Of a stretch of DNA of 64,000 nucleotides, positions 8,752 through 49,259 are shown piece by piece. A program made the translations under genes and the position numbers. The stretch spans positions 992,001 to 1,056,000 of the forward strand of contig NZ_CP115175.1 in NCBI RefSeq assembly GCF_027912415.1, written 5' to 3'. The DNA is from Homoserinibacter sp. YIM 151385 (lineage in GTDB: Bacteria > Actinomycetota > Actinomycetes > Actinomycetales > Microbacteriaceae). The notes under the pieces were generated by a model. That model made no database searches. It was not told the origin of the DNA and worked only from the letters and a program-made list of their open reading frames with translations. Within the stretch, counting starts at the first letter, position 1, and every line of letters begins with the position of its first letter.

Positions 8752-9729
8752 TCAGCGTGTCGTGCCCGCGACCTTGGGCAGGGCGCCGCCGGCGGCGGCG
8801 TTGCGGTCGGGGCGGAAGTTGGAGAAGTCGACGCCCGGGATGTGCTTCACGAGGTCGATCTCGTCCTCGATCTGCGCCGCCTCCCACTCCTCCGGCCCGA
8901 CGAGCGGGAGCCGGACGCGCGGGGAGGTGATGCGGCCGAGGCCGTGGAGGATGTACTTCGCCGCGACCGTGCCGGGCACGTGCGTCATCGTGGCGCGCAC
9001 GAGCGGCTCGAGCGTCTGGTGGGCCTCGGTCGCGGCGCGCAGGTCGCCCGTGTTCACGGCATCCACCATCGTCCGGTACGGGCGCGGGGCGATGTTCGCG
9101 GTCACGCCGATGAGGCCGGTGCCGCCGATCGCGAGGGTCGGCAGCGCGTTCGCGTCGTCGCCGGCGAAGTACATGAGGTCGGTCTGGTTGAGGACGCGGC
9201 TGACCTCGCTGAGGTCGCCCTTCGCATCCTTCACCGCGAGGATGTTGGGGTGCTTCGCGAGGCGGAGGATCGTCTCGTAGCGGATCGGGACGCCCGTGCG
9301 GCCCGGGATGTCGTAGAGCAGCACCGGGAGGTCGGTCGAGTCGGCGACCATGCGGAAGTGCGTGAGGATGCCGGCCTGCGTCGGCTTGTTGTAGTACGGC
9401 GTGACGATCATGATGCCGTCGGCGCCGACCTGCTCGCTCTTGCGGTAGAGCTCGATCGCGTGCGCCGTCTCGTTCGAGCCGCCGCCCGTGATGATCTTCG
9501 CGCGACCCGCCGAGACATCCTTCGCGACCTCGACGAGGCGGATCTTCTCGGGGTCGGTGAGGGTGCTCGTCTCGCCCGTGGTGCCGGTCACGACGATGCC
9601 GTCGGCGCCGTCCTGGATGACGCGGTCGATGTGCTTCTCGACGTCGCCCCAGTGCACCTCGCCGTCGGCCGTGAACGGGGTCACGAGCGCGACGAGCACC
9701 TGTCCGAAGGGGTTCTCTGGCGTCGACAC
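8752..9729 (-). CDS. dapA: 4-hydroxy-tetrahydrodipicolinate synthase
   Basis: DapA condenses pyruvate with aspartate semialdehyde, the first committed step to lysine and diaminopimelate. The 325-residue protein has the GTTGET motif at about 49-54, catalytic Tyr in VTPYYNKP (about 113), and the Schiff-base Lys167 in ILAVKDAKGD. It starts with GTG at 9729, supported by a TAGCCT box exactly 7 nt upstream (leaderless). Related actinobacteria usually have thyX directly upstream of dapA; here a DUF559-type gene and repeats intervene. Confidence 0.96.
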   Translation of the reverse strand: MSTPENPFGQVLVALVTPFTADGEVHWGDVEKHIDRVIQDGADGIVVTGTTGETSTLTDPEKIRLVEVAKDVSAGRAKIITGGGSNETAHAIELYRKSEQVGADGIMIVTPYYNKPTQAGILTHFRMVADSTDLPVLLYDIPGRTGVPIRYETILRLAKHPNILAVKDAKGDLSEVSRVLNQTDLMYFAGDDANALPTLAIGGTGLIGVTANIAPRPYRTMVDAVNTGDLRAATEAHQTLEPLVRATMTHVPGTVAAKYILHGLGRITSPRVRLPLVGPEEWEAAQIEDEIDLVKHIPGVDFSNFRPDRNAAAGGALPKVAGTTR

Positions 9730-9770: not shown

Positions 9771-9841
9771 CCGTTGTGCAGGAGTTCTCGGCTCCTGCGC
9801 CGTTCCGACTGTGCTTCGACGTCAGAAGTCCTGCACAACGG
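9771..9841. repeat. Inverted-repeat end element, dapA side of the DUF559 cassette
   Basis: CCGTTGTGCAGGA (9771-9783) and its exact complement TCCTGCACAACGG (9829-9841) bound a 71-bp element; after one mismatch the stem continues with TTCT. A second pairing is possible because GCAGGAG (9778-9784) also matches CTCCTGC at 9792-9798. The same 13-mer recurs at 10877-10889 beyond the next gene. I saw no other copies in the window. Confidence 0.8.
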
Positions 9842-9856
9842 GAGTGGGGGATGCCG

Positions 9857-10711
9857 TCAGGCGCGATGATCGCCGCGAGCGATCGAAGCTTCGAGCGCCA
9901 TGAGGCAGTGCGACAGCTCGTGCACCACCTGCCCGTACATGAACCGGAGCGTGCGATAGCCGGCGATGCTGGCCTCCGCGTCGCGTCGACGATCTCGATA
10001 CGCGTCAGAGTGGTACTCCCGGCTGTCGGCCTCGACGATCAGCCGCTCCCCGATGACGAAGTCGACGCGGCCGACCCCGTCGATCGGCACCTGCTGCCGG
10101 AAGGGGATCCGGCGCTCGATCATGGCGAGCTTCAGGAGCGACTCCGTCCCGCTCTCCGACTCCGCCCCGGTCCGGATCGCGACTCGACGCAGCCGACCGG
10201 GGATCCGGCTCACGACATCCGCTCGCGCGGACGCAGGGAGGACGCGGCTCAGGATCGCCGACTCCATCGCGGCGAAGAAGTCGGCCTTGGGCGCGCAGCT
10301 CGCCATCGAGACGAGGCAGTCCGGGACCGACTGGATGCCCCGAGTCGTCGACCCGCTCCAGTGGACCACCACCGCATCCCGATCGGCGGACTGCGCGAGT
10401 CGGAGGCGGCGATCGCGCGGGGTCCGGAGCCTGGCGGAATCGGCCGGGACTTCCACATGCAGGGGCGGCCGATTTCGGAGCCAGAGGCCGTGATGCCCGG
10501 CGGCGCTCAGGCAGGCGAGCGATCCGCCGACGCGCACCGCGGCGATGGCCTCAGGGCCGAGTCGCGGGTCGACGTACCAGCCCTTCCGCGGTCGGACGAC
10601 GTCGCCGTGCGCGACGGCGGCGCGCAGCGCACCGGGGCCGAACCCCGCATCACCGAGTTCGCAGGCACGCGCCACGCCGCCGAGCAACCTGATCGCTCGA
10701 AGCACCGACAC
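9857..10711 (-). CDS. AbiEi-like/DUF559 domain protein (Vsr-like putative endonuclease)
   Basis: The N-terminal 80 residues resemble the winged-helix region of AbiEi-type antitoxins (LLGGVARACEL, then VVRPRKGWYVDP). The C-terminal part, about residues 195-275, is a DUF559 fold of the PD-(D/E)xK/Vsr class, with GTESLLK, VDFVIGERLIVEADSREYH and a basic RDRRRDAEA helix. Similar two-part proteins are common in Microbacteriaceae and their function is unproven. I chose GTG 10711 (284 residues) because GGCGAGG lies 8 nt upstream; the frame is open to 10816. Inverted-repeat elements bracket it within the conserved thyX-dapA interval, suggesting acquisition. Confidence 0.7.
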   Translation of the reverse strand: MSVLRAIRLLGGVARACELGDAGFGPGALRAAVAHGDVVRPRKGWYVDPRLGPEAIAAVRVGGSLACLSAAGHHGLWLRNRPPLHVEVPADSARLRTPRDRRLRLAQSADRDAVVVHWSGSTTRGIQSVPDCLVSMASCAPKADFFAAMESAILSRVLPASARADVVSRIPGRLRRVAIRTGAESESGTESLLKLAMIERRIPFRQQVPIDGVGRVDFVIGERLIVEADSREYHSDAYRDRRRDAEASIAGYRTLRFMYGQVVHELSHCLMALEASIARGDHRA

Positions 10712-10786
10712 ACCATGAGCCTCGCCGGACCGGTGTCCCGGCCCGACCGAACCGCTCGATCTGTGGACGCATCCCCCGCCGCGGGG

Positions 10787-10889
10787 GTTGTGGAGGAGGG
10801 TATGTCGCCCTGGCACCTGCCGTTTCGCAGGAGCGGCGCATGCTCGACGCTCTCAAGCGCTCACGATCCGCGGATCTCCTGCACAACGG
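10787..10889. repeat. Inverted-repeat end element, thyX side of the DUF559 cassette
   Basis: TCCTGCACAACGG (10877-10889) is identical to the arm at 9829-9841 and exactly complementary to 9771-9783. Its local partner GTTGTGGAGGA (10787-10797) has one mismatch in 11. An inner GCAGGAG at 10827-10833 can also pair with CTCCTGC at 10876-10882, as in the other end element. Together the outer 13-mers bound 1,119 bp (9771-10889). Confidence 0.7.
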
Positions 10890-10912: not shown

Positions 10913-11701
10913 CTAGGGGGCGACTCGGCCGTTCGCCTGGAAGGCGGCGTGGGTCAGCGGCATGAGGCGCTGCCAGGCCTCCTCCAGCTGCTCGGCCGCC
11001 ATCTCGATCTCGCGCTGCGGGAAGGAGGGGAAGTGCGAGTCCTCGCGCTTCGTGCGCAGCGAGAGGAAGTTCATGAGCGAGCGCGCGTTCATCGTCACGT
11101 ACATCGAGGAGTAGAGGTTGAGCGGGAGGACGATGCGCGCGACCTCGCGCGCGATGCCGGCCTCGAGCATCCGCTGGTAGGAGGCATAGGCCTCGAGGGA
11201 GACCGCGGTCGCCTCGCGGACGGCGAGCTCGCTCTGTTCGGGGCTCCCCTCCTCGAAGACGTAGGCGCCCGGCTTGCCGACCTGCACGAGGCGGCGCTCG
11301 GCGCCGGGCACGTAGAAGACGGGGCGCAGCTCGCGGTAGCGGCCCGACTCCTCGTTGTAGGACGCGATCCGGTGGCGCATGAACTCGCGGAAGACGAAGA
11401 TCGGCGCCTGCACGTAGAAGGTCATCGAGTTGTGCTCGAAGGGCGAGCCGTGGCGGTCGCGCATGAGGTAGTTGATGAGGCCCTTGTCGCGCTCGCCGGC
11501 CTCGGTGCCGGCGGCGGCCTTCTCGAGGGTCTGCTCGCCCTGCGTCGAAACGCGGGCGGCGAAGAGGACGTCGGCGTCGGCGGCACTGGATCGCACCAGC
11601 TCGACGGCGATGTCGGAACGGAAGACGGGCTCGCGGGTCTCGCTGGCATCGGGCACGGTCGCCACGATATCGCCGGCCCCCGACACGTCATAGTCGGACA
11701 C
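10913..11701 (-). CDS. thyX: Flavin-dependent thymidylate synthase
   Basis: ThyX methylates dUMP to dTMP using methylenetetrahydrofolate, FAD and NADPH. The signature RHRxxSxNxxSxR is present as RHRIASYNEESGR at about residues 109-121, and the protein is colinear with the family over 250 residues. The start is uncertain: GTG 11701 gives 262 residues, GTG 11686 is possible, and neither has a clear ribosome-binding site. In related genomes thyX immediately precedes dapA; here the DUF559 cassette lies between. It is divergent from the thioredoxin-like gene. Confidence 0.93.
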   Translation of the reverse strand: MSDYDVSGAGDIVATVPDASETREPVFRSDIAVELVRSSAADADVLFAARVSTQGEQTLEKAAAGTEAGERDKGLINYLMRDRHGSPFEHNSMTFYVQAPIFVFREFMRHRIASYNEESGRYRELRPVFYVPGAERRLVQVGKPGAYVFEEGSPEQSELAVREATAVSLEAYASYQRMLEAGIAREVARIVLPLNLYSSMYVTMNARSLMNFLSLRTKREDSHFPSFPQREIEMAAEQLEEAWQRLMPLTHAAFQANGRVAP

Positions 11702-29516: not shown

Positions 29517-29625
29517 GGCGCGGATTCAGGAACCGCACGGACCCTCCGCCGACGCGGGACCGCCGTCGCGGGCGGAGTCCGGCGCATCGCGGCACACCGG
29601 AGTGCGGCGCTCCTGAATCCGCGCC
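29517..29625. repeat. 109-bp inverted-repeat element between convergent genes
   Basis: GGCGCGGATTCAGGA (29517-29531) and its exact complement (29611-29625) are 15-bp arms around a 79-bp core. The core has its own hairpin, CTCCGCC (29544-29550) with GGCGGAG (29571-29577), and an offset repeat of CCGCAC. There is no ORF or T-run. It lies between the DedA gene and the interrupted LLM gene and could be a bidirectional terminator, but arms this long and precise also fit a dispersed repeat. Confidence 0.8.
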
Positions 29626-49148: not shown

Positions 49149-49259
49149 GGCTCCGGCTCATGCGCCCCCGAGATGGGCGTTTCTCCGCATCCGCGGCGGG
49201 GATCCTCGGTGCGCGTGCGGAGAAACGCCCATCTCGGGGCGCTGGAGCAGGCCGGAGCC
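49149..49259. repeat. 111-bp compound palindrome between rpsT and holA
   Basis: Outer arms GGCTCCGGC (49149-49157) and GCCGGAGCC (49251-49259) enclose a 24-bp perfect inverted repeat (49166-49189 with 49216-49239, for example GAGATGGGCGTTTCTCCGC with its complement) around a 26-nt loop. rpsT already has its own terminator, so this element is extra. It has no ORF. The long comEC frame ends in its outer arm at 49158. Confidence 0.85.

Follow-up and report, generated by a model that had tools for sequence, protein, structure and literature searches.

In bacteria, the spread of short palindromic repeats is a long-standing question, for which RAYTs are the main accepted candidate enzymes. REPINs, the repeats linked to them, consist of two palindromes in inverted orientation; a RAYT dimer is believed to mobilize them, and every repeat family has a distinct enzyme of its own (PMC3116915). 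Repeat classes without a dedicated transposase have also been noted (PMC3733652). Two other types of described proteins are relevant to the locus presented here: AbiEi and Rv2827c, whose own promoters contain the inverted repeats to which they bind (PMC7319586), and the homing endonuclease I-Bth0305I, which as a dimer occupies nearly 60 bp of target DNA (PMC3943268).

We analysed a stretch of 64,000 nucleotides from the genome of Homoserinibacter sp. YIM 151385, hereafter called the window. It harbours a nuclease gene paired with locus-specific palindromes, copies of which are dispersed in the same genome; across pairings of this kind, the palindromes measure ~55-110 nt. In the open full-text literature (as distinct from subscription papers), we found no link of DUF559 proteins or AbiEi-nuclease fusions to palindromic repeats, and the pairing looks like a so far undescribed mechanism by which small DNA repeats spread.

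The nuclease gene and its two palindromes

The initial annotation described a single element with 13-bp terminal inverted repeats, enclosing one gene for a putative winged-helix and Vsr/DUF559 protein and no transposase. The terminal 13-mers were confirmed (CCGTTGTGCAGGA at 9771-9783, its exact complement at 10877-10889), and a third exact 13-mer, again the complement, is present at 9829-9841. These three are the only exact copies of CCGTTGTGCAGGA on either strand of the 2.88-Mb genome, for a chance expectation of ~0.09 over both strands. The internal hairpin versions of the motif pointed out at each end are real and represent the opposite arms of two complete palindromes, e1 and e2 (Table 1). 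The segment is a palindrome-gene-palindrome arrangement whose ends are two whole 70-71-nt palindromes, and not a single element with short terminal repeats; as each end is a whole palindrome, a simple transposon with 13-bp ends is excluded. The nuclease gene is indeed the only gene of the segment, and no transposase was found near it.

Table 1. Features of the nuclease locus and neighbouring genes, with positions in the window
Feature	Positions	Strand	Description
Palindrome e1	9771..9841	.	71 nt; downstream of gene; perfect 13-bp arms CCGTTGTGCAGGA / TCCTGCACAACGG
Palindrome e2	10820..10889	.	70 nt; upstream of gene; outer arm TCCTGCACAACGG exact, inner arm CCGTTTCGCAGGA with two changes
AbiEi-DUF559 nuclease ORF	9857..10816	-	probable true start GTG 10711 (residue 36)
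AbiEi-like region	10166..10720	-	residues 33-217; N-terminal winged helix and AbiEi C-terminal-like domain
Vsr/EDxHD-type nuclease domain	9863..10159	-	residues 220-318
thyX, upstream neighbour	10913..11671	-	Thy1, E 2e-50
dapA, downstream neighbour	8752..9729	-	DHDPS, E 1e-79

The DNA fold of e1 has a z of -3.9. That of e2, whose inner arm has decayed, is only -0.8, indicating a weak hairpin; e2 scores 76 bits against covariance model R1, in the same orientation as e1. A known RNA was considered and discarded, the only Rfam match being a sub-threshold miRNA model (E 0.17, 20.7 bits versus a gathering score of 98). Comparisons with sister species, whose intergenic DNA is too divergent for insertion ends to be placed to the base, revealed neither a target duplication nor an excision junction.

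Pfam analyses of the protein agree with the initial annotation: its C-terminal part matches DUF559 (E 7e-8) and its N-terminal part AbiEi_4 (E 2e-4). PADLOC matches its AbiEi part only, weakly (E 2.5e-4), and an NCBIfam search returned zero matches. An AlphaFold model generated from 82 homologues has a mean pLDDT of 91. Residues 1-30 are of low confidence in this model and fall outside the homologous region, which makes the downstream GTG the probable real start. Comparison of the modelled nuclease domain (residues 222-318) with the PDB places its predicted fold nearest to a homing endonuclease, the match being the catalytic domain of I-Bth0305I (3r3p; Z 14.0, 94 residues, 1.8 A), with a Neisseria structure (3hrl; Z 12.8) and Vsr (1cw0; Z 10.8) at lower scores. 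Residues 33-217 match AbiEi of Streptococcus agalactiae (6y8q; Z 8.1 across 172 residues), with its two-domain fold present, and this region is the probable DNA-binding part. E225, Q242, D252, E262, D264 and D275 are invariant in 82/82 homologues and H269 is found in 81 of the 82; given these invariant active-site residues, catalysis appears to be under selection. In a collection of genome contigs scanned with the protein, the only relatives detected were three distant DUF559 proteins. The window locus has no methylase or toxin partner, and no AbiEii nucleotidyltransferase gene adjoins the nuclease gene, whose neighbours are thyX and dapA.

The order thyX-nuclease-dapA is found in 4/5 genomes of the genus. 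Comparing the thyX-dapA loci of relatives, as had been proposed, revealed an empty site in one genome (G118), where ~100 nt without a palindrome separate the two genes. While thyX is 82-86% identical in these genus genomes, the nucleases are only 37-41% identical to that of the window, and the palindrome motifs at the site differ within the genus (CCGTTGTGCAGGAG; ACCRTCTCAAGGAGTTGCTG in two genomes; CGATCTCGGCATC). The segment was first taken to interrupt conserved synteny; a fresh interruption is at odds with the related genes found between thyX and dapA in several genera. Among 90 family loci, 12 are at thyX and/or dapA, and 38 different neighbourhoods occur overall. The thyX-dapA label requires 6 changes on a quick tree versus 13.2 when shuffled. 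On this tree the thyX-dapA residents show clustering, though not one origin. Together, these results suggest that a gene usually keeps its locus by descent and only occasionally moves, and that protein and motif change together. Judging from these sequence comparisons, the gene appears mostly to stay in place by descent, and its palindromes and protein to diverge fast.

Flanking palindromes in the family, the order and the genome of the window

With a cut-off of E<=1e-10, nuclease homologues were collected from 104/150 family genomes, at 1 to 8 per genome, mostly 30-44% identical. We set the threshold for a strong palindrome at a span of 45-130 and a score of at least 12. Such palindromes are present on 112/178 flanks of 89 family loci, versus 11/178 control stretches taken 870-1200 bp from the loci and 4/178 Markov shuffles, counts that are non-independent since they cover loci related by descent. 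Both sides are occupied at 39 of the 89 loci and one side at 34, and no palindrome reaches the threshold at the other 16. The palindromes, of 86 nt median span, are found upstream of the gene at 54/87 loci and downstream at 56/87. Where both sides score at least 10 (52 loci), the two sides share the arm motif in 45 cases, and the paired palindromes are within 8 nt of each other in length in 37/52 pairs. Arm motifs differ from locus to locus. The two palindromes have no fixed relative orientation: judged by their middles, 8 loci are direct and 11 inverted, the others being undecidable.

The family-protein profile matches 204/248 genomes of the order. In nine other families of the order (53 loci), palindromes occupy 58/106 sides, versus 2 for distant and 0 for Markov controls. 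Between genera, motif similarity correlates with protein similarity, weakly (rho 0.15, 0/500 permutations), and does so for the N-terminal (p 0.004), middle (0/500 permutations) and C-terminal (p 0.028) parts of the protein. The core idea of the initial annotation was a nuclease that belongs with the palindromes on its flanks, in the manner of RAYT or homing systems. It gains strong support from the matching flanks across the family and the order, the dispersed copies described below and the homing-endonuclease-like fold.

Some loci have peculiar layouts. In the flanks of L086, L093 and L126, the half-site occurs twice per arm, in tandem ~20 bp apart (e.g. CCCAAATCAAGGAGTCGAGCATCCCAAATCAAGGAG), as though each arm were bound by two proteins. 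The nuclease matches of L057, L060, L085, L090, L096 and L114 carry one or two in-frame stops and are possibly decaying copies, yet L057 has near-identical flanking palindromes.

As a control for specificity, 418 genes of 600-1400 nt from the genome of the window were analysed. A hairpin is present on 89/836 sides (10.6%), on both sides of 3/418 genes, and with the same motif on both sides of 1/418; palindromes at nuclease loci are six-fold enriched per side over this background. The single same-motif gene retrieved by this blind scan (G000:2531325-2532342) codes for a divergent AbiEi-DUF559 protein. It has no Pfam match, and its assignment to the family is based on hhalign (95.8% to the family profile over both domains), its single-sequence model (pLDDT 39) being useless.

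A census of palindromes in this genome, combining a 1.26-Mb scan (44% of the genome) with pattern searches, revealed at least five nuclease genes. Every one of them has a separate palindrome family, and no motif is common to two. The five are family A (CCGTTSTGCAGGA; window gene; 5 copies), family B (CTTCCGAAATGCAGGA; gene at 134892; 20 core matches genome-wide), family C (GTGAGGGGTCCCATATGAC; gene L021 2348-3253; 9 copies in the scan), family D (CGTCGGAAACTCAGGA; gene at 458972; 10 copies in the scan) and family J (GTGCCCGAACAGCCTC; the blind-scan gene at 2531325). For several palindrome families, no nuclease gene was found between the copies in the scanned 44% of the genome.

Repeats of the window type are not confined to the thyX-dapA locus, so that the refuting condition named in the initial annotation, the same gene and repeats here and none elsewhere, does not hold. 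A whole-element pattern detected two further genome sites with the exact 67-nt inner span of e1, and zero matches in reverse. The covariance model built from the five family A copies (e1, e2, G000:1096635-1096705, 1853023-1853093 and 2564887-2564956) scores these at 76-80 bits and the next new site at 32. Their sixth arm base varies (G or C) and is still paired where the arms are intact.

In family D, 8/10 scan copies lie within ~15 kb of the nuclease gene at 458972 (G000:445265-474762), a clustering that suggests local spread. The window also harbours a 74-nt solo palindrome at 49166-49239, with perfect 24-bp arms (CCCCGAGATGGGCGTTTCTCCGCA...). Its GTTTCTCCGC core is common to about a dozen shorter palindromes of 48-70 nt elsewhere in the scanned 44% of the genome (e.g. 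at 1304685, 1354794, 1525384 and 2561439). The scan detected no nuclease that would anchor this family, and its long motif has no exact match among the other loci compared. A 109-nt palindrome at 29517-29625 (GGCGCGGATTCAGGA...TCCTGAATCCGCGCC) has two further copies, which form a tandem pair at G000:2306518-2306753; no anchoring gene was identified for them in the own-genome scan.

Dispersed copies in other genomes

The pattern AATGCAGGA-N(34-64)-TCCTGCATT is present in 19/150 genomes, with up to 36 copies each, versus zero matches to the reversed pattern in 150/150 genomes. Although spans of 52-82 nt were permitted, 44/45 copies examined as loci span 73-75 nt, and all 13 copies of genome G037 span 73. 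The solo copies resemble the palindromes of the nuclease locus in their own genome: nearly all those of G037 have GTRCC outer bases (extended motif GTRCCAAATGCAGGAG), as at its locus L055, and those of G127 have CAGA-type outer bases (extended motif CAGAAATGCAGGAG), as at L059. Their middles are related in G037 (identity 0.62 versus 0.33 shuffled). In G127 they are near random (0.40 versus 0.37 shuffled), yet 12/13 are equal in length. Because spacing is conserved where sequence is not, we read the palindrome as a putative bipartite protein-binding site.

Solo palindromes are species-specific and insertion-polymorphic. Almost all (22/23 examined) are intergenic, between convergent, codirectional and divergent genes alike. 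For five G037 copies, the palindrome is absent from the orthologous sites of sister species, with flanking genes 71-88% identical; the orthologous gaps are 0-32 nt versus 125-169 nt in G037 (8 comparisons). The other 6 G037 comparisons revealed unrelated sequence or another hairpin at the orthologous site. At L201 (G152), orthologous to L170, a different 47-nt palindrome (GCGGATTGAGCCCGTCGAAACC..GGTTTCGACAGGCTCAACCCGC) lies where G037 has its own, and the same intergenic site thus seems to attract different palindromes.

Genome G058 harbours fourteen AATGCAGGA palindromes and no close nuclease homologue (best E 2.6e-8), and its genus mate G127 has 36 palindromes and a cognate nuclease gene. 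Such repeats can therefore outlive or lack a nuclease; those of G058 may be orphans after gene loss or be mobilized by a distant relative. Solo palindromes often occur as tandem pairs ~120-205 bp apart, as in G107 (C33:23055/23260 and C29:43024/43223), G029 (C3:73893/74015) and G058 (C1:1279455/1279609), near-identical in G107 and G029. They resemble the tandem clusters of REPINs, as well as the gene-flanking layout minus the gene. A search for Y1 (RAYT) transposases (PF01797) in 12 palindrome-bearing genomes found none, and its control was positive.

Interpretation and relation to known systems

We consider it probable, with moderate confidence, that the window gene and its palindromes represent one lineage of an order-wide nuclease-repeat system that resembles REPIN/RAYT and is built on an unrelated nuclease. 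To the same moderate degree, we favour the view that AbiEi-EDxHD (DUF559) nucleases are a second, independently evolved enzyme class spreading fixed-length bipartite palindromes, with a motif code for each lineage. We infer that the nuclease binds, cuts and moves the palindromes. It would bind as a dimer, with one AbiEi module per conserved arm, across a spacer fixed in length but not in sequence, for an outer span of about 70-75 nt, much as I-Bth0305I, an EDxHD homing endonuclease, sits on its long target. The nuclease would then nick or cut the palindrome as a duplex, as a cruciform or in single-stranded form at the replication fork; new intergenic sites would then receive a copy of it through repair or strand transfer. 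The gene itself would mostly stay in place by inheritance and relocate rarely.

The main rival, which we regard as unlikely, is homing or gene drive of the whole gene: the nuclease would cut a solo palindrome or an empty site, and repair would install a complete palindrome-gene-palindrome copy, the solo palindromes being targets or remnants after gene loss by recombination between both palindromes. The nearest fold is indeed that of a homing endonuclease, the gene is present or absent at thyX-dapA within one genus, the 90 loci lie in 38 different neighbourhoods, whole palindromes on both flanks are expected from solo-site insertion with duplication, and some genes with in-frame stops, such as L057, keep their palindromes. 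However, the genes largely follow their locus, as seen from the 6 tree changes versus 13.2 shuffled, solo palindromes far outnumber gene copies, and the five anchored genes of the own genome share no motif. Moreover, with both palindromes intact the product would still be cuttable, and the empty site of G118 has no palindrome.

Regulation is a somewhat weaker candidate than homing: the palindromes would be operators of an AbiEi-type autoregulator and its regulon, the nuclease domain would serve another purpose, and the motifs would co-vary through protein-site co-evolution. This explanation would fit the binding of AbiEi and Rv2827c to promoter repeats (PMC7319586) and the tracking of protein by motif similarity. 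Pure regulation is made less likely by the equal frequencies of downstream and upstream palindromes (56 and 54 of 87), and the occurrence of solo copies between genes in all orientations, their insertion polymorphism, the tandem pairs, the clustering of family D around its gene and the invariant active-site residues also argue against it.

Vsr-like and AbiE domains are common in defence, and many fast-diverging nuclease copies per genome could point to the same role, in which the nuclease would attack incoming DNA and the genomic palindromes would titrate or inhibit it or mark self. We deem this improbable, as the window locus lacks a methylase or toxin partner, the PADLOC match is weak and limited to the AbiEi part, and defence leaves both the insertion-polymorphic palindromes and the gene-flanking pair unexplained. 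Ordinary terminators or chance inverted repeats in GC-rich DNA, hinted at only by the nonzero own-genome background (10.6% of gene sides), have hardly any likelihood left and are refuted by the flank, motif and reversed-pattern controls, namely the six-fold per-side enrichment, the motifs shared by both sides, the fixed-span dispersed families and the zero reversed-pattern matches.

A nuclease-repeat system of the kind we favour suggests a role for some of the proteins in a Pfam family that has no assigned function. Uncharacterized 'DUF559' proteins form a large family, with 1-8 members per genome and likely DNA substrates beside each gene. With so many protein-motif pairs available in nature, recognition, cutting and the spread of repeats can be tested directly, and a code for the sequence-specific recognition of long DNA sites could emerge.

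Relative to known systems, the locus differs from classical insertion sequences and MITEs in that its ends are separate palindromes and no transposase acts on terminal inverted repeats. It shares its nuclease fold with the Vsr mismatch endonuclease and stand-alone DUF559 proteins, but here this fold is joined to a DNA-binding module and associated with palindromes. The N-terminal 185 residues resemble the antitoxin AbiEi of type IV AbiE systems, which is known to bind inverted repeats (PMC7319586), with, unlike in AbiE, an extra C-terminal nuclease and no adjoining AbiEii nucleotidyltransferase. As in the EDxHD homing endonuclease I-Bth0305I, the catalytic fold is Vsr-like with conserved acidic residues, whereas the gene is not in an intron or intein, the DNA-binding part is AbiEi-like, and two whole flanking palindromes and dispersed copies are present. 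With respect to REPIN/RAYT, Pfam and fold analyses identify the window enzyme as a PD-(D/E)xK/EDxHD nuclease with an AbiEi module and not an HUH Y1 tyrosine nuclease, and its arm motifs have no common GTAG or CGTC tag (as defined in PMC3733652), so that the system is not a REPIN/RAYT member; its palindromes are also longer, with a variable spacer of fixed length. Nevertheless, it shares with REPIN/RAYT systems the palindrome-flanked gene, the numerous copies scattered between genes, whose two ends are conserved and inverted, the tandem clusters, and the presence in one genome of several distinct enzymes, each single-copy with its own repeat family, which in the case of RAYTs is thought to be mobilized in trans (PMC3116915, PMC8266576).
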